In this document: positions 31,423 through 53,499 of the stretch, piece by piece
Numbering within the stretch: the stretch's first letter is position 1
How the letters are laid out: every line of letters begins with the position of its first letter
DNA from: a virus
Strand: one strand, 5' to 3'
IMG/VR virus record: IMGVR_UViG_3300023175_000012
Location: 51,785-115,784 of that record
DNA: 64,000 bases
The notes under the pieces: model-generated
Database searches by the model: none
What the model was told of the DNA's origin: nothing
The model's input: the letters and a program-made list of their open reading frames with translations, nothing else
Position numbers and translations under genes: made by a program

Positions 31423-33855
31423 TTGCCACAAAGTAGACGTACAAATTATAGAAACTTAGATGATATAGGAACTGGTCCTTACGAGGCTATAGTTGTAAGT
31501 AACCTTGACCCTACCTATATGGGTAGTCTTAAAGTAGATGTTTTGAAAAATAATACTTCGGGTAGTTTACCTGAAAAAATTGGAACGTCTATTGAGGTTA
31601 GGTATCTGTCTCCGTTTTACGGAGTAACATCATTAGATACAGCAACGGCAAATGACGGTTATGCAAGTACTCAAAAAAGTTATGGTATGTGGTTTGTTCC
31701 TCCTGATATTGGATCACGTGTTCTAGTTATTTTTGCAGAAGGTGATATATCAAACGGATTTTGGATAGGATGTGTTCAAGATAAGTTTATGAATTTCATG
31801 GTTCCTGATGGAAGAGCATCAACTGAAATAACTACCGCAGCAACACCCGACAATCTACAAGGATTAAAATTACCTGTAGGCGAATATAATAAAAAAGTTG
31901 AACGAGGCTCTGGCAGAGACCCAACAAGATATCCTAAACCATATAATAAAGATTTTTCACAAACTTTAGAAATACAAGGTTTAATTAGAGATGAAAACAG
32001 AGGAACAACAACTTCTAGTGCTAGAAGAGAAGCTCCGAGTTCTGTTTTTGGTATTAGCACCCCAGGACCAATTGACAAGCGTTCAGGCGCACCAAGAGGA
32101 TTACAAGGTGAAGCAGGACTAAAATACTCGGCATTTGTTAATCGCTTAGGCGGCTCTAGTTTTGTTATGGACGACGGTGATGACAAATTACTAAGAGTAT
32201 CTCATGCATCAGCAGGACCTCCTATATATGCAAACGTAGAAGGCGGTGAATTATTTGGGGATAAAACTATACCCCATAATGAGGTAATGAGATTTAGAAC
32301 TCGAACCGGTCATCAGATATTAATGCATAATGCAGAAGACTTTATCTATATTGCTAACAGTAGGGGAACAGCATGGGTTGAATTAACTAGTGATGGTAAA
32401 ATTGATGTTTACGGATTAGACAGTATTTCTATTCATAGTGACTCGGATATAAATTTAACAGCAGATAGAGATGTTAATATTGAAGGCGGCAGAAATGTTA
32501 ATGTAAGAGCAAGTGCTAGGTATACTGGCTTTCAAAGTAACGGAGGTAGCGGTAACGTACAAATTGAAAGTAAGTTTGATACAAAAATGCTTTCAGAACA
32601 AAATATGCTTGTAAATGTAAAAGGATATCAAGAAACTAAAGTTACTGGATATCAAAAAACACTTGTAGAAGGAGATATACATCATCACACAAATGCAAAT
32701 TTATATGTGTTAGCAGATGCCCAAGGTCATGTCCGCACAGTAGAAGATTTACACGTTAACACAGATGAAACTTTACACCTAGTTGGTAAAGTAGGAAAAT
32801 TAACAGCAACAGATGGTTTAATAGATTTAAATGCATCAGCAGATGTTAACGTAGATGGTGCAAATGTATATCTTAATAGTGATATAGCAACAAACGGAAC
32901 AGCGGCAACTGACGCAGAAGATGCTGTAGATTTTATCTATCTTAAAAATTGGACAGTTCCAAAAACATCACCCGGAACAGACATATCCTCAGATATTTCT
33001 ACTTTCGTAAAAAGAATGCCGACACACGAGCCATATTATCAACATGAAAATTTAGATCCAATAATGGTAAAAAGCGAAAGAACAGATATTACTAATCCTG
33101 TTGTTCTTAGTGTTGCACAATATAGAAGTTCAGCAGATACGTTTAGAAAGAGTTTTTCTGGAGGATCAGGAGCAACAGCAGCAGGAGCCGCAGGAGACGG
33201 AACACGTGGCGGCACTAATCCAAACTTAGATCCTAACACTAGTGGAGTTAATCCAGTTACAGAACAAGGAGGATCCGGCGGAGATACTCTAACACCACCA
33301 CAATCATTCTCAACAGTTGGCCCAGACGGTAATTTATTAGATATGATTAGTAGAGCAGAAGGCGCAGGTTACAATACTGTATTTGGCGGAAGCAGGATTA
33401 CTCCTGAAACACTTTATGGAAAAAGTCTAACACAGCTTACTATACAAGAAGTTATCGACTGGCAGACAGCATCAGTAGATGCAGGCTCTGCGAGCTCTGC
33501 TGCAGGTAGGTATCAAATTATTAAAAGAACCTTAGTCTACCTAGTAGATCAGTTAGGTGTTGCATCTAGAACAGATAAATTTGATCCTACTACACAAGAT
33601 GCTATGGCTAGACGATTGCTACAAGGCAGAGGACTTGACAGATACGTTGCAGGATCTCTTTCAGAGTCAGCATTTTTAAAAGCTATTGCACAAGAATGGG
33701 CAAGTTTACCAGTTACACAAAGAACACAAGGTGCATCACGTATTGTAAATCCTGGAGAAAGTTATTATGCAGGTGATGGATTAAACAGGTCATTAATAAG
33801 CACTACAGAGTTAGTTGCAGCGGTCAGAAATGCACGAGAATCAGGACTTGCATAG
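31423..33855 (+). CDS. 5: Baseplate hub/tail-spike protein, gp5-like, with C-terminal lambda-R type lysozyme
   Basis: An 810-residue protein starting at TTG, with AGAGG 7 nt upstream; no ATG fits. Residues 15-135 are the gp5 N-terminal OB-fold ('YEAIVVSNLDPTYMGSLKVD', then 'PPDIGSRVLVIF'). Residues 270-470 are a VgrG-like triple-stranded beta-helix ('HSDSDINLTADRDVNIEGGR' and similar). After a Gly-rich linker, residues about 640-800 match lambda R-type transglycosylase: catalytic glutamate in 'SRAEGAG' (near 646), 'SSAAGRYQIIKRTL', 'FDPTTQDAMARRLL' and 'AQEWASLP'. T4 gp5 instead has its lysozyme between OB-fold and helix, so the order is different here. Confidence 0.85.
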   Translation: MPQSRRTNYRNLDDIGTGPYEAIVVSNLDPTYMGSLKVDVLKNNTSGSLPEKIGTSIEVRYLSPFYGVTSLDTATANDGYASTQKSYGMWFVPPDIGSRVLVIFAEGDISNGFWIGCVQDKFMNFMVPDGRASTEITTAATPDNLQGLKLPVGEYNKKVERGSGRDPTRYPKPYNKDFSQTLEIQGLIRDENRGTTTSSARREAPSSVFGISTPGPIDKRSGAPRGLQGEAGLKYSAFVNRLGGSSFVMDDGDDKLLRVSHASAGPPIYANVEGGELFGDKTIPHNEVMRFRTRTGHQILMHNAEDFIYIANSRGTAWVELTSDGKIDVYGLDSISIHSDSDINLTADRDVNIEGGRNVNVRASARYTGFQSNGGSGNVQIESKFDTKMLSEQNMLVNVKGYQETKVTGYQKTLVEGDIHHHTNANLYVLADAQGHVRTVEDLHVNTDETLHLVGKVGKLTATDGLIDLNASADVNVDGANVYLNSDIATNGTAATDAEDAVDFIYLKNWTVPKTSPGTDISSDISTFVKRMPTHEPYYQHENLDPIMVKSERTDITNPVVLSVAQYRSSADTFRKSFSGGSGATAAGAAGDGTRGGTNPNLDPNTSGVNPVTEQGGSGGDTLTPPQSFSTVGPDGNLLDMISRAEGAGYNTVFGGSRITPETLYGKSLTQLTIQEVIDWQTASVDAGSASSAAGRYQIIKRTLVYLVDQLGVASRTDKFDPTTQDAMARRLLQGRGLDRYVAGSLSESAFLKAIAQEWASLPVTQRTQGASRIVNPGESYYAGDGLNRSLISTTELVAAVRNARESGLA

Positions 33856-33870
33856 GGGGTAAATATAGAT

Positions 33871-34317
33871 ATGAGCACGTTAGAAAAAAATATTTACAAA
33901 AGAGTAAATGTATCAAGTCAAAAAGTACAAAAGAAACCTGCAAGTAGTGCGGCTTATAGGTCCATTAGCACAGTAAACCCTGCTAATGATGGTTTTAGAT
34001 TATACGATCTTGCGGTTATTAAGCAAGACGTAATAAATCATTTTCATATACGTCAAGGCGAAAAACTAGAAAATCCTGAATTCGGTACAATAATATGGGA
34101 TGTTCTTTTTGATCCTCTTACAGAAGCATTAAAATCTGCTATTGTAGAAAATGTTGAACAGATCATAAACTATGATCCTAGAGTTCTAGTAGACAATGTA
34201 GTAGTTGATACTTATGAAAGTGGAATACAAATTGAGTGTACATTAATATACTTGAACTACAGTATAGCTGAATCTATGAGACTACAGTTTGATAGAGAAG
34301 CAGGGCTTCTTGCGTAA
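33871..34317 (+). CDS. 25: Baseplate wedge subunit gp25
   Basis: A 148-residue member of the GpW/gp25 family with the signature 'RQGEKLENPEFGTIIWDVLF', then 'DPLTEALKSAIVENVEQI'. Length is close to T4 gp25 (132 aa), with an extra 15 N-terminal residues. Gp25 links sheath initiation to the wedge. A GGTAAATA box and GGGGG lie directly before the ATG. Confidence 0.94.
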   Translation: MSTLEKNIYKRVNVSSQKVQKKPASSAAYRSISTVNPANDGFRLYDLAVIKQDVINHFHIRQGEKLENPEFGTIIWDVLFDPLTEALKSAIVENVEQIINYDPRVLVDNVVVDTYESGIQIECTLIYLNYSIAESMRLQFDREAGLLA

Positions 34318-37300: not shown

Positions 37301-37840
37301 AGAACTTATGGAAGGGAATTAAACAAAATAAAATCTATTAGTGATGAGGTAATTTATCATCCTGTAAAATATAAAGAACTATTTGGTTCTACAGCAAAGA
37401 CTGATTTACAAGCAACATTTAAGTTAGTTAAAAATAAAGACTTAGTTTTAAATGACAACGATATTAAGACAAGATGCATAGAAGCAATAAATCAATATTT
37501 TGCATTAGAAAATTGGGATTTTGGAGATACTTTTTACTTTCAAGAATTGGCAACATACATAATGAGCAGACTTGCTCCTGATCTTGTAAGTGTAGTAATT
37601 GTACCAAATCAAATTACACAAGCATTTGGAAGTTTGTTTGAAATAAGAAGTGAACCGGATGAAATTTTTATCAATAGTGCAACAGTAGCAAACATAGAAT
37701 TAATAGATGAAATTACAGCAACTAGACTGAATGCTTCAGGTAATGTTGTAACTTCTAGCGACACAGACAATGTAGGCATAACTAGTTCTACTTCTTTTGT
37801 AAGTTCAACTAGTCCAAATAGTGGAGGAAGTTATTACTAA
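34373..37840 (+). CDS. 6: Baseplate wedge subunit gp6
   Basis: A 1155-residue homologue of T4 gp6 (660 aa), the dimeric ring that controls sheath contraction. Family start: 'EDWKKVYQSFRNADFQSYDF', then 'DFNDYIESSEYLALIDLIAF', then 'RLARLLNYNPRRNQSANG'. The C-terminus ('DLQATFKLVKNKDLVLNDND', 'FALENWDFGDTFYFQELATY') also matches gp6. The extra length lies in the middle, with a large insertion of beta-rich sequence at about residues 500-950. It overlaps the giant gene by 1 nt (TAATG). Confidence 0.93.
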   Translation: MSATDRQNRLLVAEDWKKVYQSFRNADFQSYDFDNLRRTMIEYLRTNYPEDFNDYIESSEYLALIDLIAFLGQNLSFRIDLNARENFLELAERRESVLRLARLLNYNPRRNQSANGLLKFTGIKTTEDIIDSNGTNLAGQTIQWNDSTNSNWYEQFIKVLNASLPVNGVFGKPNKSEVVGGIQTDQYRVNGVNTDVPVFSFEKPVEGKSTPFEVVSMDIEDGSLVEEPPVPGNNFAFTYRNDTQGPGSSNTGFFAHFRQGRLESGQFSVTQPSPNQTVGIDAENINDSDVWLFKLDGNNNESELWSKLDAVEGNNVIYNSINKKIRNIYSVLTRVDDRINLIFSDGVFGNLPKGNFKAYYRVSENRNMVITPAAISNITVSIPYLSKKGRVQTLTITLSLQTTVANGSRTETNLSIKQNAPATYYTQNRMITGEDYNVAPLGVSQEIVKVKSVNRTSSGISRYFDIVDATGKYSNTNLYGNDGVVYKEYTIDKTSFNFDTQTDIEGIIINQIEPILDNKRVKHFYLDKFPKINTFDLNVFWKVVSEDTNTFTGQFESSTGEAYNVGTFTTNSLKYIEAGTSVKFQAPEGYHFMSDGSLMAGTPDHVGSSLYKWTKVVAVSGNGIQPGLTEIQGAIALGDKIPTGCRLVQVRPRLAESLTDDVKVEIIDQAFAYNDFGLRYDQTNRIWRLIKASDIDKRSSFGTGFSGNVTNSNLDASWLILFETNGETYKVTYRGLQYVFESDKEIKFYYDSADTMYNNKTGKTKKDKITVLNINTQPDNTSPFTSDFTFDILEAYRDKEGYVDTKKIEITFADRDNDGIIDDPELFDHIVAEDINPLTKLIMQEKYITGTGVEDFKYVDATSANIKIFLNQTSIGPLSAYTDGDIFYLQSSDTFKQYNQSQNELVTISDYKAFIGRDKLKFHYLHTADSNNRIDPSASNLIDTFMLTKTYDRNYRLWIDGQLSQKPLPPSSDELFRTYGRELNKIKSISDEVIYHPVKYKELFGSTAKTDLQATFKLVKNKDLVLNDNDIKTRCIEAINQYFALENWDFGDTFYFQELATYIMSRLAPDLVSVVIVPNQITQAFGSLFEIRSEPDEIFINSATVANIELIDEITATRLNASGNVVTSSDTDNVGITSSTSFVSSTSPNSGGSYY

Positions 37841-40800
37841 TGGCTTACGATAACGATCAGACAGAATCACCATTGCCAACAGGCGATCAAGAGAAAAGAA
37901 AAAGCACTGATCTCTTACCTAAGTATTTTAGAACGCAAGCAAATAAAAAGATTCTATCTAGTACATTAGATCAGTTAGTACAACCTGGATCAGCAGAAAA
38001 AGTTAATGGCTATATGGGCAGAAAAAATTCTAAAGCTCATAGGCTTAATGATACTTACATAGAAGATGTAACTGTACAACGACAAAATAGGCAATTAGAA
38101 CCGGCCACAGTATCTGTAGATGATTTAGGTAATGTAAATTTTTATGCTGATTATGCAGACTATGTAAACCAAATTAAAAACTTTAATGGTAGTAATGCTA
38201 ATCATAGTTTAATGAATAGCCAAGAATACTATGCTTGGAACCCTAATATTTGTTTTGATAAATTTACAAACTTTAGAGAATACTATTGGCTACCTAATGG
38301 CCCTCAAACTGTAACAGTTTTTGGCAAGTCGGAAGATGAAACTAGTACTTACACAGTAACTACTGAAGTACAAGATGACAATACAGTTTATAAATTTGAT
38401 CCTCCAGGATTTGAACCTAATCCTGCTTTAACATTATACAGAGGACAAACTTATACATTTGATATTGATACTCAAGGCCATCCATTTTCGTTTTCTACTA
38501 ACAGAAGATTTTCAGATGCTCCGTTTACACTTGAAAAACAAAATGACGGAAGTTATAAAGTTATATCTGGAGATTCTGAAAATATTTCTAGCCTATATGT
38601 TCAAGGAATTACAGCCGTTGATTTAGAAGGTAATGAAATTGACCCAGTTAATGTTGAACAAGGTAAAATTACATTCACCGTTCCGTATAATGCACCTGAT
38701 CAATTATATTATGTAAGCCAAAGTGATATAAACACAAGTGGGTATATTAAAGTATTTGATATAATTGAAAATACATCAATAGATGTTAACGAAATTGTTG
38801 GTAAAAAGCAATATACAAGTGCTAACAAGGTTGCATTATCAAATGGACTAAAAATAAAATTTGCTGGAAATGTAACTCCTGAGTTTTACAAAGATAAAGA
38901 ATTTTTTGTAGAAGGTGTAGGCGAAAGCATTAGATTAATTAACGAATTAGATTTAGTTATTCCTGCCAGTTATGTCGGAAATAAATTAGTACCATTTGAC
39001 AGCGAAGGATTTGATAGATTGCCATTTGGTAATGCTAGTGCCTTTGCAGAAACAAAAGATTATATTGTAATTAATAGAGCTAGTCCTGATAGAAATGCAT
39101 GGTCAAGATATAACAAATGGTTCCATAGAGATGTTATAGAAAAGTCAGCAGAATATAATGATAGTGTTCCTAGTATTGATCAATCTGCTAGGGCGTCAAG
39201 GCCAATTATTGAATTTAATGCAGGACTAAAATTATTTAATTATGGTACTCAAGCAAAACATGATGTAGACTTAATTGATTATAAAACTACTGATGCTTTT
39301 AGTACAGTAGAAGGTTCTACAGGTTATAATATTGATAATGTAAATCTTGCAGACGGAATGCGTGTTATTTTTAATGCAGATACTGACCGTCTTGTTAGAG
39401 GAAAAATTTACAAAGTTAAATTTATTTTAATTGACAATATAAGGCAAATAAGTTTAATTGAAGATGATGATGCAATACCAACCGAAAATGAAACTGTTCT
39501 AGTTAAAAGCGGAGACATATACAAAGGTAAATTATTTTACTTCGACGGAACATCGTGGGTTGCATCACAAGAAAAAGTAAAGGTTAACCAACAACCAAAG
39601 TTCGATGTATTTGATACAATGGGAAATAGTTTTTCAACTTATAATGCATCAACATTTGCAGGAACAGAACTTTTTGCTTACAAGATTGGAACTGGTACTA
39701 ACGACAGTGAATTAGGATTCCCTCTTTCATACAGAGCTATAGAAAACTTTGGTGATATACAATTTAATTTTCCGCTAGTAACTGATGCCTTTGTATACGA
39801 ACAAGATAACGAAAAAATTAAAGTCAATACAGAAACGGGTTACTTGAGACAGTACAGTAATATTACGAACTTTAAAAGTAAAAATGGTTGGGAAAAAGCA
39901 AATCAACTTAGTAAACAGGCTGTAATTAAACAATATGATGTAGAAGATCAACTTAATGATTTTGCTGTAGATGTATTTGACCGTAGTGGTGACTTAAATG
40001 ATTTAGAAGTAAAAGTTTATGTTAATAGTTACTTTAGGAAAGAAGAAGTACATTATACTATCAACAGAATTAATGGTATTGCGTATATTACTTTTACTGA
40101 TAATCTTAAAACTGGAGATATTTTAATTTTAAGATGTTTTTCTAAGACACCATCTAATCAAAATGGGTATTATGAACTTGCTTATAATTTAGAAAGAAAT
40201 CCTTTAAACGAAAATATTAAAGATTTTACTATTGCAGAAGTAAATGACCATGTAGGTACAATAATAGAAAATACCTTTGATTATAATGGAAACATTTTTC
40301 CAGGATCAAGCAACCTAAGAGACTTAGGGTTTATTGTTAAAAACGGAACAAGATTTGTTAAACATACTGGCCCAATTGCTCTTGCAAGTTATCATCTTAC
40401 AGATAAAAACGCAAACATTATAAAGGCATTAAAATATGCAAGATTAGAATACGCAAAGTTTAAAAGATTGTTTATTCAAGTTGCTGAAAATTTAGGATAT
40501 GACGGTCCAATAAAACAACATGTTGATAACATTATAGCAGAAATTAATAGTCAAAAAACTGAAGGTATGCCATTTTACTTTTCAGATATGATACCACATG
40601 GTGCATCAAAAGGCACAACTCATATTGTAAGAGCAAGTGATAGCGAATTTTTTGCATTATCAGAATACTTTGACTTAGACCAATTAAGTAACAGAAGCGT
40701 AATGGTTTACCTAAATGGTAAATCTCTTTGTTACGGCTCAGATTACGAGTTTACACAAGAAGGTTTCGTAAAAGTACTTACAACTTTACAAGTAGGAGAC

Positions 40801-43800
40801 GAGCTTGAAATATACGAATACGATACAACAGACGGTTGTTTTGTTCCTGCAACTCCTACAAAGTTAGGACTGTATCCTAAGTACAAACCAGAAATTTTTA
40901 TCGACGATACCTATGAAACACCTAGAAAAGTTATTCAAGGACACGACGGTAGTATTGTGTTTGCATATGACGATTTTAGAGACGATTTAATATTAGAATT
41001 TGAAAGAAGAGTTTACAATAACTTAAAGCAAGAATATAATCCTGATATTTTTAATATTCATGATTTTGTAGGCGGAAACTATAGAGACACAGGATTTGAA
41101 AGAGCAAACATAGATACAGGCATGGTATCTGATTTTGTACAATGGACTGTTATCGCAGGCGATCCTAATTATACCAATAACGATTTTTATAAAGACACTT
41201 TTACATTTAGATACAATTATAAAAATATGTCTTCACCTACTGGTAAAAAATTACCAGGTTTTTGGAGAGCTGTTTATAAAGATGCTTATGATACAGATCG
41301 TCCTCATACTCATCCTTGGGAAATGCTCGGCTTTACAATTAAACCAAAATGGTGGGAAGAAGTATACGGGCCGGCACCCTACACAGCCAACAATTTTGTA
41401 TTATGGGAAGATTTACAAAATGGTGTAATTCGCCAACCTGGCGTACCTACAGTAGTAAATTCTAAATACAAAAGACCAGGTTTACTAAATCATATTCCAG
41501 TAGATTCCAACGGAAAACTTTTAAGTCCGTTAGATAGCAACTATGCAAAAAATTATGTTGCTATTAGAGCTAGAGATGCATATACATTTGGCGACGAAAC
41601 ACCTACTGAAACAGCATGGAGACGTGGTAGTGAATATCCATTTGCGTTAATTACATCTTGGATATTAAATCAACCAGCAAAAGTAATCGGACTAGGCTAT
41701 GATTTATCAAGAATGTCAAGAAATGCTGTAGGCAACATTGTATACAGTGAGTCAAATACTATTTTAAGATTAAGAGATTTGGTATTTCCAAATACATATA
41801 CAGATAATCAGCGTGTCATAACTTCTGGATTAGTAAACTACATTTACAATTATATTGTAAGTGATATAAACACAAATTATGACGAATATCAAAATACATT
41901 AACTACTCTAAAAAATAAACTTGCATTAAAAGTTGGAGGATTTACTGATAAAAGTAAATTTAAATTAATTTTAGATAGTAGAACACCTCTAAATGAAGGC
42001 AATGTATTTGTTCCACCAGAAAACTACAAATTATTTTTAAATACCTCTACTCCAGTAACTATTGCAAACTACAGTGGTGTTGTTATTGAAAAAGCAACTG
42101 GCGGATTTATTATAAAAGGATACGATCAGGCTAAAAGTTCGTTTGATTATTTTGAAGCAATTGAAACACAATCAGATCCTAGTATCAATGTTGGAGGCAT
42201 ATCGGAATCATTTGTAGATTGGGATAATGGAAAGCAATATATTAAAGGACAAAATGTTAGGTTTGATAGTTTCTTTTATAGAGTGAAAGAAAGTCATGTT
42301 AGTGGAACAACATTTGCAGATGATAAAATGTCTAAACTTGCTGCATTGCCACAAGTAGGCGGTAGAGATAGTGTTCTAAGACGTAAATTTACTAACCGTG
42401 TTAAAACAATATCATATGGAACTCAACTTAATAGTGTACAAGCGGTTGTAGACTTCTTGTTAGGATATGAAGCATATTTAAAAGCACAAGGATTTATATT
42501 TGAATATTATAATAATGATATCGAAATAGTTGAGGACTGGACATTTAGTGTTAAAGAATTTATGTTCTGGACTACACAAAATTGGGCCGCAGGAAGTGTG
42601 CTTACGATTAGTCCTGGTGCTCAACAAATTAAATTTAATAAACCCTATCATGTAGTTGATAATATATTTGATGATTTTTATGATTATAGTTTATTAAAGG
42701 CCGACGGCAGAAAATTAGACAGATCGTTTAGTAGCATTGCACGAGACAGTGAAAATGATTTTGGGTTGTCTGTAAAAAATACAGCAGATGGCATTTATAG
42801 TATACGTTTGCCGTTAGTACAACGAGAACATGTAATTCTTTTAGACAACGTAACAGAGTTTGGTGATGTAATTTATGATCAAGAAGCGGGCTATAGACAA
42901 GAACGTATAAAGGTTACAGGGTATAGAAGTGACAACTGGAGCGGTGGCCTTAATATTCCAGGATTCATTTATGATGAAGCTGAAGTAAGAGATTGGGAAC
43001 CTTGGAAAGATTATGGTATCGGCAAACTAATTAAGTACAAAGAATTTTACTATGTAGCAACTAACAATATCAGTGGCACAGAAGTATTCATCGATAATCA
43101 ATGGGAAAGATTAAGTGAAAGACCAGAATCTAAACTATTAACAAACTTTGAATATAAAGTTAATCAGTTTGCTGACTTTTATGATCTTGATACAGATAAT
43201 TTTGATATTGAACAGCAAAAACATGCTCAGCATTTAATAGGATATCAAAAACGTAAGTATCTTGAAAATATTATTAATGATGATGTAAGTCAATATAAAT
43301 TTTATCAAGGCATGTTGCAAGATAAAGGAACAAAAAATAGTTTAACAAAACTGTTTGATGCTTTAGCAAGCGCAGATAAAGAAAGTTTAGAGTTTTATGA
43401 AGAATGGGCTATTAGGTTAGGACAATATGGTGCTACAGATAACTTTGAAGAAGTAGAATTTCTAATTGACGAAGCAGAAATAAAAACTAATCCACAGCCT
43501 ATAGAGCTTGTGTTAAGTAAACCGGCTAACGATACCGACACTATTTATAAACTAACTCCTAGTGACATATATAAAAAGCCTCAAAACTACGATCATAAAC
43601 CATTTCCAGTAGTAGATCTTTATAATCAATACACAAGAGATGCTGGTTATGTTTACGAAGGTGATGTAGTTTACAGAATTAACGACAGAAATGATATATT
43701 AACAGCAAATATTGATAGAATAGGCGCAAATGATTATATATGGATAACAGGAAAAACTGGAGACTGGGATGTAGTACAGCATATTACTACAGATATAAGA

Positions 43801-46800
43801 GTTACTAAAATTGAAGCATTTAGTGCAAGTGCTGATGCACGAGAATTACCTGCAAATCCTGGAGGTACTTTCTATCTTAATAAAGCACATTCATTTAAGG
43901 TTGGCGATATTATAGGAGTATCTAACACTTCAACAGCAAATGATGCGTTTTACATTATAGAAACAGTTAGACCTACACAAATTGATGTATTTGCTAGTGC
44001 AAATCAAAGCATAGAAGCATTAGAAGAAGTAGACGGATATATCAGTAAATTAAGATCAGTCAAATTTGATACAGTTAAAAATGCAAATTATGTAATGGAA
44101 GATCGAGTTGCAAATCAACAAAAGATTTGGATAGACGGAACTACTAAAGATTGGCTTGTTGCTGAAAGAACTGATGCATTTTTAGATGCAGATCACTATA
44201 ATAACCCTGCAAATTACGATCCTTCCAGTACTTACGAGTTTGGTTCAGAAATGACTGTGAATAGTGCTAATACAAGAATAGCAATAGCAGATCACAGTGC
44301 AAATAATAATAAGGGTAAAGTTTATACCTATCAAAGAGGGTCAAATTTACGCAATTTCTTATACGAATCTGAATTAGATTTAGATACAGCATTGTATCCA
44401 ATGGATGACGATCATAGATTTGGTGCAAGTGTTGCAATGAGCCCCGATGGAAAGTTTATTATAGTAGGATCTAGTACAGCAAGTGGAGTTGCATCTAGTT
44501 ATAAAGGAGATTATAGTAAAACTTCAGCATATAGCGAAAATGATATTGTTAAGTTTAATGAAAACTATTGGAAGTCTATAAGAACTATTACTCCAGAAAG
44601 TAGTAGTGTTGCATTTAGTACATTTGATAGCTATACAAATTTAGAAAGACAAAGTGATAGTAGTTTACTTACATTAGTTTTACAAGGAAGTCCTTACTTA
44701 CCTAATACCGAAACAGATCACTTATTAATAGCTGCGCCTTTTGATCAATATAGAGGCACTAAAGTAAAAGATAAACTTGTTCTAAATTGGAATTTTTATA
44801 CAAACTTTAATAGAAATGAAGGACCAAATACTTCAGTAGAACTATTCCCCACAGGAATCAATTCGCAAAATGTGCAAGCACAATACAACGAACCGGGTGG
44901 CTCTTTTATAGACGGCGAACATGAAATTATTGAAAAGGTTGATAGTGTATTACTACTTGAACCATATACAGACCCGCCTGAAGAAGGTGATGTTATTTCA
45001 ACACCTAGTGGCTCTGCAACTGTTTTCAAAACATTTACAAGAGATTTTAAATTAGTAATTTATACTAAAGACACTAATGGTGTATTTACAGAAAACGGCA
45101 CAATATCAAATGCTGCAGGTACTGAAATTGGTACATATACCCAACCTAATTTTAATGGTACATCAGGCGGCATCGGTGGCTGGTGGTATATCAATACTAA
45201 TGGTACATATGTTACGTCAGACGAATTTACAGAAACAAAAGATTATGGTGTTCCTGCTTATGGCTTAGTGTATCGAGATATACTAGTTTATGATGAAAAT
45301 ACTGATTCCTATGCAAGAACAATTCCTAATTTTTATAAAAATATTCTTAATGATGTAAATGGTACGTTATTCCCAGATAGAGATGAACCTGGATTTATTG
45401 GAATATTATCTCATAGAGGCGGAGCATACATTAACGAAGATGTTGACGGCATTCAAAATATTTTAGATCCAAGATGGCTAATGCGAGTTCCACCTACGCT
45501 TGCTGGAGAAATTAACCAACCAGGTGATCAGTTTAGGGTTGCTATCGACGACCAAGCAGATCCAGTTGACGAATCATTACTTGGCATCGAAGCATCTTAT
45601 CTAAATGATAACTTGCATACTGTTATTGATGTATGGGAAGGATATATTGACTTTACATTTACAAAATTCCAAACAGCAGATATTGATATATTATCAGACC
45701 AAGATACTGATGTTGGTGACTTCTTTGAGCCTGCATACGAGGGTAAAGTATTTACAGACACATTAGGAAATATTGTAAACATAGGCGGAGCTGATGGTGA
45801 TTTTATTAGAGATGAGATCACCGGTGCAAGAGGTCGAGTAGCATATTATATAAGACGTAATATTAACCAAGGTAGAGTATATCTTAAAGAAGTTACAGGA
45901 AACTTTACACAAGGTAATAGATTGCTATTAGAAACACAAGAAGGAAATCCACCGCAAGCAAACTTGCGTATTATGGGACCTATTAATAAAATTTCTTTAA
46001 CAGGATCAAATACAGGAAAAATTGCTGTAATGGAAAGGGGAACACCGTTTCCTGCACATCCTGAATCATATGGTGGATTGGAACAGTTTGCTGATCTAAA
46101 TACTTTTGCATATGTAAACAAAGAGTTTTGGATATACAAAGAAAATTTAACAGAAGCAGGAGCAGAAGCCCAAGCAAGCATACCTAGCACATCTAATAGT
46201 GACTGGAGACTTGTTTACAATCTTCCTGTAGATACATCAGGATCAACAGATAGCAAACCTACTAATCAAGGTGTTTATAGTATCTTTAGTAGTGTAGGAA
46301 GCGTTTGGACAAATCAAGGAACATATACTATTCCTGGAAGTTCAACAGGTAGCAATGTAGGTAAACAAGTTGCTGTAAGCCAAGATGGAGATTTATATAG
46401 ATTCTATGTAGGGTCTAAAGAAAATCTTACCGTAATTAAACACGGTACTGACAAATACGGAAAAACATATAGATTTGCTCTTGACATAAATCCTCATTAT
46501 AGAGGACCATACACTCCGGATGCAATTTACAAAACTGGAGAAATTGTATTATATGATAATCAGTTGTATAGTGCATTGACTTTTAACAAAAATGTTATTC
46601 CTACAAATTTATTAAAATGGGAAATATTAGGCAACCAAGTAAATTATCTACCAACACTTCCAAATGATGTTAATATTTACAATGATCCTGTGTTTGACGA
46701 TTTAAACGAGCAAGTCATTGATTTTTCAAAGCAAGTTAAAGTTAGCGAAAATGGACAAATTCTTGTAACGAGTATTATTACAGATGAATCAGTTGACCAA

Positions 46801-49800
46801 GATAACAAAGTTTTAATTTATAGAATACTAGATGACAGATATGTTTTAAGTCAAACTATTGTTGCACCAGTTTCTAATACTGGTTGGGGTAGTAGTTTAG
46901 ATATATCTGAAAATGGAAACATTATTGTTATTGGAGATCCTGAAAACAGTGAAGATGCATATCATGCAGGTAAAGTTTACGTTTATGCTAAAGACGGATT
47001 ACAGTATGAATTACACCAAACATTGTCAGGTACGAAAACACCTGCTGAAAGATTTGGTATTAAAGTTACCGCAACAAATGACTTGATTGCTGTAAGTAGC
47101 GGCGCCGGAGATATAATAACCAATACAACCTTTGATAGCGGCGAAACATCCTTTGATGAAACATTTACAACATTCCCGGATAAGAAAATAGACAGCGGAA
47201 GTGTAAGACTTTATCAGTTTATAAAAGACGCATATATTCTTGGAGAAGAATTAGACTACGGCGGTGATTCTACAGTATTACAAGCAGGTAGGTTTGGCGA
47301 CCAAGTGTTAGCAAATAAAAACCACATATATGTTGGTATACCTGGAGATCCTAATGTAGACGAAGTAGGAATCAATCCTGGTAGTTGGGTTGATTATAAG
47401 GTTGCTGCTGATCAAAAACCCTGGACAACTATTAGAACACCAAACAATGTTGTAGACGTTAATGCAATTAAGTCAGTTTACTTGTACAATACTGTTACAG
47501 ATAAATTAGTATCATACATTGATTACATCGATCCTGTGCAAGGTAAGATAGCAGGACCTGCTGAACAAGAATTAACATTTAAATCTAATATTGATTTAGC
47601 TAGATATAATGTCACAAGTTTGCCAAACTTCTTTAGTGAAACTGACAACTGGGAAGAAAAGTATGTGGGCAAATTGTGGTGGGATTTATCAACCGCAAAA
47701 TTCTTTAATGCATATCAAGAAGATGTAGCCACTCAAGCAAACTACTGGAGCAAATTAATTCCTAACTATTCTGTTGATGTCTATGAGTGGGTAGAAAGTT
47801 CTATTCCTCCAGATGAGTGGGATACACTAGCAGATACAGCTAGAGGTTTCGCTCAAGGCATAAGCGGACAATCTAAGTATGGTGTAGATGCATATAGCCA
47901 AAAACTTTCATATAATTCAGCAACAAAAACTTTTAATACAAAATATTACTTCTGGGTAAAAAATAAATTAACAATACCCGCAACAGAAGATAGAAGTTTA
48001 CCGGCATCAGAAGTTGCAAAACTAATTGGAGACCCAAGAGGACAAGGATATCAGTTTGTTGCTCTACTTAGTGATAACAGATTTGTTATTTACAACGGTG
48101 AAAGTTTGATAAAAGATAAAGAAGTAGCTCTGCACGTAAGTTATTATACGCAAGATACACAAGAGCAAAATAGACATTTAGAATATCAATTGGTCACTGA
48201 AGGTTTAGAAACAAGTGTTCCTAGAGCAGATTTGGAAAGAAAATGGATTGATAGTTTAATTGGTTATGATGATAGGGGTCGTACAGTACCTGATCCTGAA
48301 CTTAGTCCTGCAGACAAATACGGCAATTTAAATAGTCCTAGACAAAGTTGGTTTGTAAATAGACAAGAAGCATTTAAGCAAGTAATTGAAAGAGCTAATA
48401 TTGCCTTGCAAGAAACTATTATTGTTGATGACTTTAGTTTTGACACATTAAATAGCGTTGATCAACCTCCATTTGTTACTGAAAGACTTTATGATTACAA
48501 AGTAGACACTTTGGACGAAGTACAATTTATTGGTACAAACAAAATTGCACAAGCAACTTTAATACCGTCAGTACATAACGGCGTAGTAACTGATATCAGA
48601 ATTATCAATACAGGTAGAGGATATGCAGATCCTACTTATAATATAGAAACTTCAACAGTTAGACACGGACCTAGTTTTACTGTTGTAGGTAAAGGTACTG
48701 GTTTAGATTTTAATTTAGAAATTAATCCACTAGGACAAATTAACAAAGTAAACATAATTAATGGCGGCACAGGGTACGATGAAAACACTGTTATTACCGT
48801 TAGACCTGTATCAATCTATGTAGAAAATGACATTACTGTTGATAATAAGTGGGCTATTTACAGTTGGAATGCAACTTCGGGCTTATGGGACAGAAAATTG
48901 TCTTCAAGTTTTGATACAACAGCATATTGGAAATATATTGATTGGTATGCACCTAACACTAATCAGTTTACTAGAATTGATCATCGTGTTGATGAAAGTT
49001 ATCAGCTTTTATCGGCAAACGCAAAAATCGGACAAATTGTTAAAATTGCAAATATCGGAACAGGCGGTTGGCTCTTACTTAAACGTATTAAGAATACTAA
49101 CAGTGCTGATTATACAATTGATTATGAAACTATAGGTAGACAAAACGGCACTATAGAAATCAGTAGCAAACTTTACGATGTTGTAGAAAATACAGTTGGT
49201 TATGATTTATTAGGTTTTGATAATAGATTCTTTGATACAGAGCCTGTTACAGAAGCAAGAAAAATATTAGAAGCTTTGAAGAATGACATTTTTGTTGATG
49301 ACTTAAAAATTAAATGGCAAGAACTATTCTTTGCAAGTATAAGATATGTACTATCTGAACAGCAAAATGTTGACTGGGTTTACAAAACTAGTTTTGTTAA
49401 AGCAAAACATAATGTTGGCGGCTTAACTGAAAAAATTAATTATCAAAATGATAATTTAAGTAGTTACAATGATTATATTAGAGAAGTTAAACCTTACAAA
49501 ACTAATATTAGAGAATATGTAAGCTCTTATGATAAGTTAGAAAATACTAATACAGTTACAGCAGATTTTGATTTACCACCATTCTATGACTTTAGTGAAA
49601 ATGCAATTAAGACAAAACCTGTTAAAGTTATTGATAATGAAATTATCGGTGTTGATGCATTCTTTGACGAGTATCCTGCAAAAAATTGGAAAGATAATAA
49701 TGGATTTAAAGTTGTAGGTATTAACATTTATGATGGAGGTAGCAAATATACATTTCCTCCAACTGTTACAATTACCGGCGGCGGCGGAACCGGCGCTACA

Positions 49801-52800
49801 GCAAGAGCGTATTTAGGCGCCGGAAAAGTAGTTAAAATTATAGTAACTAATCCAGGATCTGGATATTTAAGCGCACCAACTGTAACAATATCAGGTTCGG
49901 GTGCAGATGATTCTACAACAGCCGTTGCGTCTGCACAAATTGGTGAAACTGTTGTTAGAACACTAAATGTTCAAATGAAATTTGATAGAGTTTCAGGCGA
50001 GTACTTTATACTGTCATTGCCAGAAACAGAAACATTTACAGGAACAGCAATCAATGATACTTTCCAACTAAAGTATCCTATGAACTTAAAGAGAAATAAA
50101 GTTAAGGTTACTGTCAACGGTGAATTACTATTACGTAGTCAATATACTTTTTCAAATATAGAAGATAAAACTTACACATACAATAGACAGTTTGGTCAAA
50201 TTCAATTCACAACAGCACCTGAATTAAACAGCATTATTGTAGTTGAATATGAAAAGAATCCTTTGATGCTTAATGCACAAGATAGAATTAATCAACTTTA
50301 TAGTCCAACTACTGGAATGCTTGGCAAAAATTTAGGCCAGCTTATGACAGGTGTTGACTACGGCGGCGTTGAAGTTAAAAGTTTTGGTTTCGAAGGCACA
50401 TCAGGTTGGATGGTAGACGATTATGGTACAGATACTTGGGATAGTTATGATAATACTTTTGAAGATGAAGTATTCATTGCTGATGGTACAACTGTTGCTG
50501 TAGAGTTATCTAAGCCACTTGAAGATGAAATAGTATACAATGTCTATTTAAAACGTGCTGGCCAAGCGCAAGCAATTAGAATTGACGATCCGTTATATCC
50601 AAATGGTAACAATCAAAATGCACTAATACAAACAATAACAGGCGACGGTGTTACTACAATTATTAATTTAGCAGATAACGACATTGAATTAAATGACGGT
50701 GATGTGTTTACTATAAGAAAGATTACATCAGATGGTAGTTTCTTACCTGATCCTGATTCATATGATACACAATTAGATGGAGGCACTATAGATTATGGAA
50801 ATGCTGCTGGCGTAAATGCAGATGACATAATACTAGACGGTGATCTATTTGTTACTCCGCTTACTAGCCAAGGTCCTGAAGAATTAGTAGCAGGACAGGT
50901 TTTAGATAGTGTTGATATTACTGTTTATGAAAGAACAGGTGAAGGTCAAGGTCAAGTTTATAATCAAAATTATCTAACAGACGGAAGTACTACAGAATAT
51001 CCTTTAGGTTTACTTCCTAATTCTGAAGATGCTGTTATTGTAAAATTAGGTAATACAATAGTTGATAAATCAGAATATACTGTAGATTATAAAAATTTAA
51101 AAATAACATTTAACAATGCGCTGGCTCAAGATCAAATATTGACTATATTAACTATAGGAGTTAACGGGCAAAATATTATCGATATAGGAACTATTCTTAC
51201 AGAAGATGGTAAAGATATTTACGAAACACAAATTATGTGGAATGATAGATACAGTATCTTTTTAAGACGAGATGGTATTATACCAGACGGTCCAGAGTTA
51301 ATTGCAAGAAAAAGTGACAACGGATTTATAGAATTTAAGTTTTCACCAATTGCACCAGTAGCTGGTACAAGACTTGATTATGAAATATATTCTAATAATA
51401 CACAAATTAATTACAGTAAAGTTAATAAAGATTCTATAGTTGCTGACGGCTCGAGTACAGTTTATAATCTTTCTATTGCATCTCAGTATGCAACACCAGC
51501 AGAGTTCTTTAGTATTGTAGAAATTGATGGAGTTATACAAAAGCCAGGTTATTCTAAAGTATTAACAATCACAAATGATAGAATTCGTGAGTATACTCTA
51601 GACACATTCCAAGTACCACCTTCGAGTATTGTTGCAGCTCAGTTAGAAGTTTACTTAAACGGATCTAAACTTACCCAAGTTGAAGACTACCTAATTAACA
51701 TTGGTACAAGTTCAATTATATTAGAAAATAATCTAGTAAGTAACGGAGATGTTTTAAGCATATATTTAAGGAACAGCGGATACAATATAATTGGTGATCA
51801 AGTTGTATTTGAAACAGCCCCAGCTGAAGACGCTGTAATGAATGTGTATACATTTACAAATCATGACGTTTTGGATATTCATAGAATAAGTTATGATGTT
51901 ATTAATAGAAGTACTCTTACACCTGGATCTGAAAATTATTCTAAATATCATGCTCTAACAGCAGGAAGAATTTTATTACAACAACCTGCATTAGGCGTAG
52001 AATATGTTTGGGTTATGTTGAATGGTAATATGCTTACACCTACAGTTGATTATAAACTAGATCCAAACGGAAGAATAATACATCTTGTAAACGAACCAAG
52101 TGAAAATGATGTTGTTGATGTAATACATTTTACAGCACCTATTAGTACACCGACTATAGCATGGAAGCAATTCAAGGACATATTGAATAGAACACACTAT
52201 AAGAGGGTTGATAATAATCAAGGAATAGAATTAGCACAAGATCTAAAATATGATGACTTAAAAGTAGTTATAGTAGAAAACGCAGAGCTTTTACCTAACC
52301 CAGACAAACGTGCTAACAGGCCAGGCGTAATATGGATTGACGGCGAACGTATAGAATATTTTGCTAAAACTAATAACGAACTTAGACAACTAAGAAGGGG
52401 AACTTTAGGGACAGGAGCAAAGCCAGTTTATCCAGTAGGAACTAAAATTTACGGTGGCTCTATAGATAAAAATATCCCTTACAAAGACGAAACTATTGTT
52501 TGGTCACCAGTAGACCCTGTAACTGAAGGACAAACTGAATTTACACTTGACTTTGTACCTGGAAGCGTTAATGAATTTGAAGTGTTTGCCGCTGGCAAAC
52601 GATTAAACAAAAATGCTATACAAAAGTTTGATCCAACATTGGCTATTGATTCGCCACAAGGTGACGTAAATACACCAGCAGAGTTTAGTGTAAACGGTAA
52701 TATTTTAACACTTACTGAACCTATGAAAGAAAATCAGAAGCTAATTGTTATTAGGAAAGTAGGTAAATTGTGGACTGACCCAGGAACTCCACTTAAAGAT

Positions 52801-52857
52801 GTTCAAAATGACATTGGTAATTTCTTGCGCGGAGCAATAAGTGAATTACCCGAATAA
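37840..52857 (+). CDS. 7: Giant baseplate wedge protein, gp7 position (5005 aa)
   Basis: A 5005-codon uninterrupted ORF (about 15 kb). It follows gene 6 as gene 7 does in T4 (1032 aa), and the start ('STDLLPKYFRTQANKKILSS', 'TLDQLVQPGSAEKVNGYMGR') is the one shared by gp7-type proteins of marine T4-like phages. Modules seen: a cupredoxin-like beta domain (residues 190-300); four CBM5/12-like 'Y-xxGxxVxYxxxxYxA' units near 1458, 1717, 2222 and 2887; FG-GAP-like propeller blades near 2194, 3015, 3070 and 3151; 'GSGYxxxPTVTI' units near 3592, 3644, 3965 and 4000; and at least six 'DG-T-Y-L...V-NG...DY' fibre repeats from 4070 to 5000. It probably spans wedge and periphery and may bind surface glycans (inference). 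No frameshift was seen. It may replace several T4 peripheral proteins such as gp8-gp10. Confidence 0.8.
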   Translation: MAYDNDQTESPLPTGDQEKRKSTDLLPKYFRTQANKKILSSTLDQLVQPGSAEKVNGYMGRKNSKAHRLNDTYIEDVTVQRQNRQLEPATVSVDDLGNVNFYADYADYVNQIKNFNGSNANHSLMNSQEYYAWNPNICFDKFTNFREYYWLPNGPQTVTVFGKSEDETSTYTVTTEVQDDNTVYKFDPPGFEPNPALTLYRGQTYTFDIDTQGHPFSFSTNRRFSDAPFTLEKQNDGSYKVISGDSENISSLYVQGITAVDLEGNEIDPVNVEQGKITFTVPYNAPDQLYYVSQSDINTSGYIKVFDIIENTSIDVNEIVGKKQYTSANKVALSNGLKIKFAGNVTPEFYKDKEFFVEGVGESIRLINELDLVIPASYVGNKLVPFDSEGFDRLPFGNASAFAETKDYIVINRASPDRNAWSRYNKWFHRDVIEKSAEYNDSVPSIDQSARASRPIIEFNAGLKLFNYGTQAKHDVDLIDYKTTDAFSTVEGSTGYNIDNVNLADGMRVIFNADTDRLVRGKIYKVKFILIDNIRQISLIEDDDAIPTENETVLVKSGDIYKGKLFYFDGTSWVASQEKVKVNQQPKFDVFDTMGNSFSTYNASTFAGTELFAYKIGTGTNDSELGFPLSYRAIENFGDIQFNFPLVTDAFVYEQDNEKIKVNTETGYLRQYSNITNFKSKNGWEKANQLSKQAVIKQYDVEDQLNDFAVDVFDRSGDLNDLEVKVYVNSYFRKEEVHYTINRINGIAYITFTDNLKTGDILILRCFSKTPSNQNGYYELAYNLERNPLNENIKDFTIAEVNDHVGTIIENTFDYNGNIFPGSSNLRDLGFIVKNGTRFVKHTGPIALASYHLTDKNANIIKALKYARLEYAKFKRLFIQVAENLGYDGPIKQHVDNIIAEINSQKTEGMPFYFSDMIPHGASKGTTHIVRASDSEFFALSEYFDLDQLSNRSVMVYLNGKSLCYGSDYEFTQEGFVKVLTTLQVGDELEIYEYDTTDGCFVPATPTKLGLYPKYKPEIFIDDTYETPRKVIQGHDGSIVFAYDDFRDDLILEFERRVYNNLKQEYNPDIFNIHDFVGGNYRDTGFERANIDTGMVSDFVQWTVIAGDPNYTNNDFYKDTFTFRYNYKNMSSPTGKKLPGFWRAVYKDAYDTDRPHTHPWEMLGFTIKPKWWEEVYGPAPYTANNFVLWEDLQNGVIRQPGVPTVVNSKYKRPGLLNHIPVDSNGKLLSPLDSNYAKNYVAIRARDAYTFGDETPTETAWRRGSEYPFALITSWILNQPAKVIGLGYDLSRMSRNAVGNIVYSESNTILRLRDLVFPNTYTDNQRVITSGLVNYIYNYIVSDINTNYDEYQNTLTTLKNKLALKVGGFTDKSKFKLILDSRTPLNEGNVFVPPENYKLFLNTSTPVTIANYSGVVIEKATGGFIIKGYDQAKSSFDYFEAIETQSDPSINVGGISESFVDWDNGKQYIKGQNVRFDSFFYRVKESHVSGTTFADDKMSKLAALPQVGGRDSVLRRKFTNRVKTISYGTQLNSVQAVVDFLLGYEAYLKAQGFIFEYYNNDIEIVEDWTFSVKEFMFWTTQNWAAGSVLTISPGAQQIKFNKPYHVVDNIFDDFYDYSLLKADGRKLDRSFSSIARDSENDFGLSVKNTADGIYSIRLPLVQREHVILLDNVTEFGDVIYDQEAGYRQERIKVTGYRSDNWSGGLNIPGFIYDEAEVRDWEPWKDYGIGKLIKYKEFYYVATNNISGTEVFIDNQWERLSERPESKLLTNFEYKVNQFADFYDLDTDNFDIEQQKHAQHLIGYQKRKYLENIINDDVSQYKFYQGMLQDKGTKNSLTKLFDALASADKESLEFYEEWAIRLGQYGATDNFEEVEFLIDEAEIKTNPQPIELVLSKPANDTDTIYKLTPSDIYKKPQNYDHKPFPVVDLYNQYTRDAGYVYEGDVVYRINDRNDILTANIDRIGANDYIWITGKTGDWDVVQHITTDIRVTKIEAFSASADARELPANPGGTFYLNKAHSFKVGDIIGVSNTSTANDAFYIIETVRPTQIDVFASANQSIEALEEVDGYISKLRSVKFDTVKNANYVMEDRVANQQKIWIDGTTKDWLVAERTDAFLDADHYNNPANYDPSSTYEFGSEMTVNSANTRIAIADHSANNNKGKVYTYQRGSNLRNFLYESELDLDTALYPMDDDHRFGASVAMSPDGKFIIVGSSTASGVASSYKGDYSKTSAYSENDIVKFNENYWKSIRTITPESSSVAFSTFDSYTNLERQSDSSLLTLVLQGSPYLPNTETDHLLIAAPFDQYRGTKVKDKLVLNWNFYTNFNRNEGPNTSVELFPTGINSQNVQAQYNEPGGSFIDGEHEIIEKVDSVLLLEPYTDPPEEGDVISTPSGSATVFKTFTRDFKLVIYTKDTNGVFTENGTISNAAGTEIGTYTQPNFNGTSGGIGGWWYINTNGTYVTSDEFTETKDYGVPAYGLVYRDILVYDENTDSYARTIPNFYKNILNDVNGTLFPDRDEPGFIGILSHRGGAYINEDVDGIQNILDPRWLMRVPPTLAGEINQPGDQFRVAIDDQADPVDESLLGIEASYLNDNLHTVIDVWEGYIDFTFTKFQTADIDILSDQDTDVGDFFEPAYEGKVFTDTLGNIVNIGGADGDFIRDEITGARGRVAYYIRRNINQGRVYLKEVTGNFTQGNRLLLETQEGNPPQANLRIMGPINKISLTGSNTGKIAVMERGTPFPAHPESYGGLEQFADLNTFAYVNKEFWIYKENLTEAGAEAQASIPSTSNSDWRLVYNLPVDTSGSTDSKPTNQGVYSIFSSVGSVWTNQGTYTIPGSSTGSNVGKQVAVSQDGDLYRFYVGSKENLTVIKHGTDKYGKTYRFALDINPHYRGPYTPDAIYKTGEIVLYDNQLYSALTFNKNVIPTNLLKWEILGNQVNYLPTLPNDVNIYNDPVFDDLNEQVIDFSKQVKVSENGQILVTSIITDESVDQDNKVLIYRILDDRYVLSQTIVAPVSNTGWGSSLDISENGNIIVIGDPENSEDAYHAGKVYVYAKDGLQYELHQTLSGTKTPAERFGIKVTATNDLIAVSSGAGDIITNTTFDSGETSFDETFTTFPDKKIDSGSVRLYQFIKDAYILGEELDYGGDSTVLQAGRFGDQVLANKNHIYVGIPGDPNVDEVGINPGSWVDYKVAADQKPWTTIRTPNNVVDVNAIKSVYLYNTVTDKLVSYIDYIDPVQGKIAGPAEQELTFKSNIDLARYNVTSLPNFFSETDNWEEKYVGKLWWDLSTAKFFNAYQEDVATQANYWSKLIPNYSVDVYEWVESSIPPDEWDTLADTARGFAQGISGQSKYGVDAYSQKLSYNSATKTFNTKYYFWVKNKLTIPATEDRSLPASEVAKLIGDPRGQGYQFVALLSDNRFVIYNGESLIKDKEVALHVSYYTQDTQEQNRHLEYQLVTEGLETSVPRADLERKWIDSLIGYDDRGRTVPDPELSPADKYGNLNSPRQSWFVNRQEAFKQVIERANIALQETIIVDDFSFDTLNSVDQPPFVTERLYDYKVDTLDEVQFIGTNKIAQATLIPSVHNGVVTDIRIINTGRGYADPTYNIETSTVRHGPSFTVVGKGTGLDFNLEINPLGQINKVNIINGGTGYDENTVITVRPVSIYVENDITVDNKWAIYSWNATSGLWDRKLSSSFDTTAYWKYIDWYAPNTNQFTRIDHRVDESYQLLSANAKIGQIVKIANIGTGGWLLLKRIKNTNSADYTIDYETIGRQNGTIEISSKLYDVVENTVGYDLLGFDNRFFDTEPVTEARKILEALKNDIFVDDLKIKWQELFFASIRYVLSEQQNVDWVYKTSFVKAKHNVGGLTEKINYQNDNLSSYNDYIREVKPYKTNIREYVSSYDKLENTNTVTADFDLPPFYDFSENAIKTKPVKVIDNEIIGVDAFFDEYPAKNWKDNNGFKVVGINIYDGGSKYTFPPTVTITGGGGTGATARAYLGAGKVVKIIVTNPGSGYLSAPTVTISGSGADDSTTAVASAQIGETVVRTLNVQMKFDRVSGEYFILSLPETETFTGTAINDTFQLKYPMNLKRNKVKVTVNGELLLRSQYTFSNIEDKTYTYNRQFGQIQFTTAPELNSIIVVEYEKNPLMLNAQDRINQLYSPTTGMLGKNLGQLMTGVDYGGVEVKSFGFEGTSGWMVDDYGTDTWDSYDNTFEDEVFIADGTTVAVELSKPLEDEIVYNVYLKRAGQAQAIRIDDPLYPNGNNQNALIQTITGDGVTTIINLADNDIELNDGDVFTIRKITSDGSFLPDPDSYDTQLDGGTIDYGNAAGVNADDIILDGDLFVTPLTSQGPEELVAGQVLDSVDITVYERTGEGQGQVYNQNYLTDGSTTEYPLGLLPNSEDAVIVKLGNTIVDKSEYTVDYKNLKITFNNALAQDQILTILTIGVNGQNIIDIGTILTEDGKDIYETQIMWNDRYSIFLRRDGIIPDGPELIARKSDNGFIEFKFSPIAPVAGTRLDYEIYSNNTQINYSKVNKDSIVADGSSTVYNLSIASQYATPAEFFSIVEIDGVIQKPGYSKVLTITNDRIREYTLDTFQVPPSSIVAAQLEVYLNGSKLTQVEDYLINIGTSSIILENNLVSNGDVLSIYLRNSGYNIIGDQVVFETAPAEDAVMNVYTFTNHDVLDIHRISYDVINRSTLTPGSENYSKYHALTAGRILLQQPALGVEYVWVMLNGNMLTPTVDYKLDPNGRIIHLVNEPSENDVVDVIHFTAPISTPTIAWKQFKDILNRTHYKRVDNNQGIELAQDLKYDDLKVVIVENAELLPNPDKRANRPGVIWIDGERIEYFAKTNNELRQLRRGTLGTGAKPVYPVGTKIYGGSIDKNIPYKDETIVWSPVDPVTEGQTEFTLDFVPGSVNEFEVFAAGKRLNKNAIQKFDPTLAIDSPQGDVNTPAEFSVNGNILTLTEPMKENQKLIVIRKVGKLWTDPGTPLKDVQNDIGNFLRGAISELPE

Positions 52858-52878: not shown

Positions 52879-53499
52879 ATGACAAACAAAATTAATGAAA
52901 ATAGCGGTGTATATGTACAAGGTCATATCAAGATACATGATCCAAAGTCAGGCGAAATTTTTGTAAACAAAAAGAATGCTATACACTATGAGAACATGAG
53001 TATTGCTCTTGCAGAAAGTTTAGGTAATGCTGGACAAGGTCCTATTGCGGTTATGAGCTTTGGAAATGGCGGTACTAATATTGATAGTACAGGTGTTATT
53101 ACGTATCTTACACCTAATAGTACAGGAACTAATGCAGGACTATATAACCAAACATTTAGTAAAATTGTAGATGATAGAAATACTGATAATAACGATCCTA
53201 CAAGAAACAGAATTGAAACAAGACATTTAAATGGTACAAACTATACAGATATAGTTATTTCCTGCTTGCTAGATTATGGTGAGCCTAACGGACAAGATGC
53301 ATTTGATACAGCATCAGATGCTGATAATGCTTTTGTATTTGACGAATTAGGATTACGTAGTGCAAGTTCAGACGGAGTATTAGGAAATGGAAGACTATTA
53401 ACACATGTTATATTTCATCCTGTACAAAAGAGTTTAAACAGACTTATACAAGTAGATTATACTGTAAGAGTACAAAGTCTTAGCGGAGGAAATAGCTAA
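52879..53499 (+). CDS. Conserved baseplate/virion structural protein (206 aa)
   Basis: A 206-residue protein: 'VYVQGHIKIHDPKSGEIFVN', 'KKNAIHYENMSIALAESLGN', then 'MSFGNGGTNIDSTGVITYL'. It ends 'LIQVDYTVRVQSLSGG'. Proteins of this form lie between the giant wedge gene and the fibre genes in marine T4-like phages (memory), where they are virion components of unknown place. Overlaps the next gene by 1 nt (TAATG). Candidate for a connector between the wedge and fibres. Confidence 0.65.
   Translation: MTNKINENSGVYVQGHIKIHDPKSGEIFVNKKNAIHYENMSIALAESLGNAGQGPIAVMSFGNGGTNIDSTGVITYLTPNSTGTNAGLYNQTFSKIVDDRNTDNNDPTRNRIETRHLNGTNYTDIVISCLLDYGEPNGQDAFDTASDADNAFVFDELGLRSASSDGVLGNGRLLTHVIFHPVQKSLNRLIQVDYTVRVQSLSGGNS

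Follow-up and report, generated by a model that had tools for sequence, protein, structure and literature searches.

A single open reading frame of 5,005 codons lies directly after a gp6-like baseplate wedge gene in the DNA analysed here, a window of 64,000 nt that forms the right part of the 115,784-bp virus record of an uncultured marine giant phage. By profile comparison, its product is a giant member of a RaK2-type protein family, PHROG 10938, annotated as 'virion structural protein'; we do not place it in the gp7 family. The protein is probably one very large subunit of a contractile-tail baseplate, with a wedge core and an outward adhesion module, the latter predicted to be a beta-propeller of the type seen in integrin alpha heads.

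The giant gene and its locus

The frame is on the + strand, with an ATG at 37840, a stop codon at 52855-52857 and no internal stops. Its 15,018 nt represent 23.5% of the window; the computed mass of the product is 563.5 kDa with a pI of 4.7, and its length is 4.85 times that of T4 gp7 (5005/1032). Thus the original prediction of a single ORF that fills almost a quarter of the window and encodes about five times T4 gp7 is confirmed exactly in its limits. The start codon is situated on the stop of the gp6-like gene (a TAATG overlap), with GGAGG closely 5′ of it. At a GC content of 33%, about 7% of random codons are expected to be stops by our own arithmetic, and an open frame of this length is therefore not due to chance.

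It had also been argued that the frame is under selection because it is open. Openness alone is no proof, but selection is found when the gene is compared with relatives that share 74-76% protein identity with it: the overall pN/pS is 0.25-0.27, and no 250-codon window falls outside 0.16-0.44. Synonymous differences are near saturation, and the true dN/dS is therefore lower still. The giant ORF is under purifying selection from end to end. A single frame is kept in 106 of 112 related IMG/VR loci; the other six have one frame break or stop each, at differing positions, which we attribute to errors of assembly or to local mutation and not to a split gene. Identical copies of the ORF are present in three other contigs. 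Together the open frame, the pN/pS values and the intact loci rule out a chance or artefactual ORF.

Features of the locus and of the giant protein are listed in Table 1. The giant ORF directly follows the gp6 homologue in all 98 related loci that have enough upstream sequence, and a giant gene is also found after a gp6 homologue in PA5oct, RaK2, Atu_ph07, 121Q, CBB, Munch, XaC1, Phosso, Vibrio phage 2.275.O and RAS14. The opposite strand carries head genes of T4 type together with gp46/47-like recombination genes, as read from the ORF list. Salicola phage SCTP-2 (L114 4609-25400) has two giant genes in tandem, of 3,096 and 3,807 aa, and its gp6 gene is ~90 kb from them; it is the sole case here of a giant gene unlinked from gp6.

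Table 1. Window coordinates of the giant ORF, its neighbours and its modules
Feature	Position	Strand	Basis or remark
gp53-like wedge protein	27465..27767	+	
gp5-like hub/tail lysozyme protein	31423..33855	+	
gp25-like baseplate wedge protein	33871..34317	+	
gp6-like baseplate wedge protein, 1,155 aa	34373..37840	+	stop overlaps giant ORF start
Giant ORF, 5,005 aa	37840..52857	+	frame reading, selection test, locus survey
Core block 1, residues 1-165	37840..38334	+	common to RaK2-type isolates
Module, residues ~165-400	38332..39039	+	absent or partial in RaK2-type isolates
Core block 2, residues 400-920	39037..40599	+	PHROG 10938 from residue 718 onward
Core block 3, residues 1000-2100	40837..44139	+	best conserved; core HMM finds 11/11 tested isolates, E 1e-27 to 1e-145
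FYQGMLQDKGTKNSLTKLF helical motif, residues 1821-1839	43300..43356	+	near-invariant
Predicted seven-repeat FG-GAP beta-propeller, residues ~2110-3195	44167..47424	+	Pfam, repeat alignment, predicted model
Region between propeller repeats 2 and 3, residues ~2230-2835	44527..46344	+	repeat spacing
CBM5/12-like stretch, residues 2891-2913	46510..46578	+	below Pfam cut-off
Core block 4, residues 3200-3930	47437..49629	+	common to isolates
Glycine-rich 'PPTVTI' domain, residues 3953-4048	49696..49983	+	PHROG 460/701/19630 type
C-terminal string of beta-sandwich-like units, residues ~4050-4985	49987..52794	+	units by eye
Conserved 206-aa neighbour, PHROG 11259	52879..53499	+	directly downstream in 39/39 loci

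Several other frames of the window should be mentioned. Positions 27768-31412 encode a 1,214-aa baseplate-region protein with a Peptidase_M15_4 domain (D-alanyl-D-alanine carboxypeptidase-type) at residues 950-1021 (E 3e-17), and the gp5-like protein beside it has its own endolysin-like C-terminal part; the two proteins likely bring two wall-cutting domains into one baseplate operon. On the − strand, a frame of at least 1,810 aa at 1-5430 runs off the left end of the window and is missed by ORF listings without open ends. It is repetitive and beta-rich, with 'ITTTNSNSDLELRASGTG' repeats, and its product is likely a long fibre-type protein. The − strand also encodes a SegE-type GIY-YIG homing endonuclease (22125-22574, E 6e-35) that adjoins the gp46/47-like genes, and an acidic protein with (D/S)DEEVDEA-type repeats (11392-12372) between portal-like and protease-like genes.

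Family, core blocks and the predicted propeller insert

PHROG 10938 covers three segments of the giant protein, with E values of 1e-169, 2e-72 and 3e-80. In tblastn searches the N-terminal part matched 59 isolates at ~23-31% identity, all of them RaK2-like, PA5oct-like, Atu_ph07-like or similar jumbo phages, and the C-terminal part matched isolates as well. Residues 1501-2000 matched at least ~600 stretches in IMG/VR. Most of the aquatic clade has intact relatives of 4,500-5,300 aa, against about 3,050-4,555 aa for the isolates; thus 5,005 aa is an ordinary length for the clade. A 'uniquely large' protein is ruled out by this norm of ~5,000 residues and by P-SSM2 gp7, which has 5,195 aa.

Homologues of the giant protein are found in virions. 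CBB_236 was represented by 21 peptides in mass spectrometry of purified virions (PMC5259590). In phAPEC6 virions, the 381.9-kDa gp245 gave 17 peptides and is listed beside a 131-kDa gp244 'baseplate wedge' (PMC7247149); gp245 is here taken as a homologue, since its size and position correspond to those of 121Q gp582. PA5oct gp355 is flagged ESI-MS/MS in its record. These mass spectrometry data and the constant place after gp25-gp6 uphold the earlier designation as a baseplate protein, in the sense of a baseplate-region virion protein.

Module limits were drawn from an alignment with 37 relatives. As delimited there, a core of ~3,300 residues is common to the isolates and consists of the four core blocks of Table 1, whose limits are approximate, and a more variable C-terminal beta-rich arm. 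Between the first two blocks, residues 165-308 match the C-terminal part of PHROG 677 (E 1e-9), and by eye this module looks cupredoxin-like. The fourth block includes a conserved stretch at ~3800-3900 that appears helical by eye, and part of P-SSM2 gp7 shows weak similarity to the 'PPTVTI' domain. A PDB sequence search with residues 1-1820 gave no matches. Evolution is slowest in residues 1500-1900 and fastest in the insert (2110-3195) and in residues 4400-4650, a pattern consistent with an inner scaffold whose outer parts face the host. The split between the core and clade-specific modules offers concrete domain limits for cloning and for placement in cryo-EM maps.

The modular content had been taken as a sign that the protein absorbed peripheral wedge functions. 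This was not upheld: no resemblance to T4 gp8, gp9, gp10 or gp11 was detected, and the core is already present in the isolates. A fusion with any of these four proteins was rejected on the lack of HMM matches for all of them and of profile-profile matches for gp9 and gp10.

The largest module that the isolates lack is the predicted propeller, of ~1,090 residues. FG-GAP-like repeat motifs are found at residues 2134, 2193, 2840, 2962, 3016, 3072 and 3152, which makes seven repeats, and Pfam FG-GAP_2 is detected in 41 of 44 homologous inserts. AlphaFold modeling of parts of the protein, one of the checks initially suggested, worked for residues 2100-3210 (pLDDT 82, pTM 0.66) and was weak for residues 1130-2120 (pLDDT 70, pTM 0.37, with the KG-motif helices below 50). 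The best PDB fold matches of the 2100-3210 model are integrin alpha heads (E 3e-8, probability 1.00), over 320-490 columns at 11-16% identity and with a large rmsd, as expected because a long insert interrupts the propeller.

This insert follows repeat 2. Repeats 2 and 3 are 647 residues apart here and 577-844 in most relatives, and just 122-152 in three others (L058, L026 and L028), in which the seven aligned repeat positions are kept. Judged by this spacing, the segment after repeat 2 is a nested, optional insert of roughly 450-700 residues, and relatives with and without it form natural pairs for comparison. The segment is beta-rich, and an alphaI (von Willebrand A) domain is absent between repeats 2 and 3 from the Pfam matches of the 44 homologous inserts. 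In I-domain integrins, the alphaI domain sits at the equivalent place.

The CBM5/12-like stretch of the window protein scores 23.9 bits against a Pfam cut-off of 26.2, and CBM_5_12 is found at E<=0.01 in 28 of the 44 homologous inserts. The modular make-up that had been noted, with adhesion-type modules, is thus substantiated by the integrin-like FG-GAP propeller and the CBM5/12-like stretches. In the 11 isolate homologues, an HMM of the whole module picked up nothing but CBM-like stretches at chance level, and tblastn with the propeller against 50,697 phage records gave no match. An apparent sharing of the 1930-3200 insert by Atu_ph07 and Phosso (70-90% occupancy, ~16% identity) is read here as alignment noise, as the propeller HMM finds none there. 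FG-GAP propellers of giant viruses and uncultured phages are present in BFVD. The module type is already known, and its place within a giant baseplate-region protein appears to be new; a literature search for FG-GAP or integrin-like modules in baseplates and for giant baseplate proteins found nothing relevant.

Proposed role and alternative explanations

We propose that the giant subunit is the product of the gene in the gp7 position of a baseplate operon like that of T4, and that its core, along with the gp6- and gp25-like neighbours, would form the wedge. Extra modules would have been inserted into loops of the core, chiefly, at ~2110, the propeller with its CBM5/12-like stretches and optional insert. 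The propeller most likely lies on the outside of the wedge, where it may bind a host-surface glycan or protein, or may anchor fibres, and the contact would be passed to the wedge. We infer the wedge location, the outward exposure and the adhesion; that the giant protein does the same job as a wedge subunit with exposed modules in its loops is argued from the gene order and the conserved core.

The 'gp7' label of the giant protein comes from gene order alone, and the protein is gp7-like in position. A search with the T4 gp7 profile gave no second candidate in the phage's own record (a fragment) or in the G001, RaK2, PA5oct, 121Q, Atu_ph07 and SCTP-2 records, and the giant gene is therefore the only positional gp7 candidate. 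The chance that it encodes a true, very diverged orthologue of T4 gp7 falls slightly short of even. Such an orthologue would place the KGT helical region (residues 1790-1870) in the core bundle with two gp6 chains, the rest being decoration, and would be a sharper version of the wedge explanation, not exclusive of it. The place after gp6 and the lack of another T4-gp7-like gene in these records argue for it, as does the best conserved segment, which has an FY..KGT..S...LF motif like those of T4 gp7 (FYSTKGIEASYKFLF, residue ~734) and S-SSM7 gp7 (FYMSKGTDSSYQILF); the low model confidence of the helices would fit folding only with gp6. However, the likeness of the FYQGMLQDKGTKNSLTKLF motif and the profile match are not above shuffled controls, and the hhalign probability is about 6% or less. 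HMM searches in both directions, hhalign of seven blocks and the motif region, and shuffles gave nothing significant for T4 gp7, and T4 gp7 is absent among the Foldseek matches listed for the weak 1130-2120 model. It should be noted that the T4 profile is not blind, as P-SSM2 gp7 is found by the same profile. Pfam PF23786 'Baseplate_wedge' is useless as a gp7 probe, since it misses T4 gp7 itself.

The beta-rich modular make-up with adhesion-type modules would also suit a peripheral protein (skirt, fibre or whisker) whose gene follows gp6 by happenstance; CBB and phAPEC6 have whiskers, and the SCTP-2 giant gene is not beside gp6. This is nevertheless unlikely, given the strict gp6 linkage in all judgeable IMG/VR loci, the invariant residues of the conserved core, and the detection of the homologue along with gp6 in CBB and phAPEC6. 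Even less probable is a protein that is translated whole and then cut into several virion proteins. A mass of 563 kDa is far above that of usual phage proteins and a T4-type prohead protease is encoded in the window, as read from the ORF list, but no recurring split site of the gene is seen among relatives, and each of the homologues in phAPEC6 and CBB is reported as one product of one gene, although cleavage could escape a list of peptides. As for the propeller, FG-GAP propellers can also have assembly roles, and they occur commonly across many types of viral protein. An element that serves assembly or spacing and does not touch the host is a possibility of some weight, yet one we rate as the lesser, as the fast evolution, the optional nested insert and the CBM5/12-like stretches suggest an exposed variable surface.

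Returning to the wedge subunit with an outward adhesion module, a bolder form of it can be put forward as a speculation that we think rather improbable: in the uncultured aquatic jumbo-phage clade, an adhesion module like an integrin alpha head, with an exchangeable domain at the I-domain place, would sit inside a load-bearing wedge protein, and receptor binding would be covalently joined to the contraction trigger, in contrast to a relay only via separate tail fibres. If the propeller is a wedge-joined adhesin, the route from receptor to contraction would be shorter than the T4 fibre relay.

Comparison with known systems

In several jumbo phages and cyanophages, the giant protein whose gene follows gp6 ranks with the largest gene products of the phage, yet its annotation is only 'virion structural protein' or 'hypothetical'. 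T4 gp7, of 1,032 aa, resembles the giant protein in that its gene adjoins gp6 and in a similar-looking FY..KG helical motif, but it is one fifth of the size, gives no significant sequence match and is not among the fold matches listed for the weak 1130-2120 model. The cyanophage P-SSM2 gp7 'baseplate wedge initiator' (PSSM2_111) is closer in its giant size and in its place after gp25-gp6. Small glycine-rich modules are common to the giant protein and the gp7 proteins of P-SSM2 and S-SSM7, whereas homology of the core is undetectable, the comparison with P-SSM2 gp7 showing no significant sequence or profile match and, for the weak 1130-2120 model, no significant fold match; a further difference is the T4-gp7-like motif that both keep near the N terminus. 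S-SSM7 (L132 2562-21656) has two ~3,000-aa genes labelled gp7, one gene apart, and the motif is in the first of these only.

The RaK2-type proteins (RaK2 ORF070, 121Q gp582, CBB_236, phAPEC6 gp245, PA5oct gp355, Atu_ph07 gp180 and that of Phosso) are like the giant protein in their homologous core, their place after gp6 and their single long ORF. In contrast to it, those of the isolates have neither the FG-GAP propeller at residue 2110 nor several of the smaller modules. The propeller differs from the integrin alpha head in its low identity, in an insert with no VWA domain and in being part of a phage baseplate-region protein; the two are alike in their seven FG-GAP repeats and in an optional insert after repeat 2.
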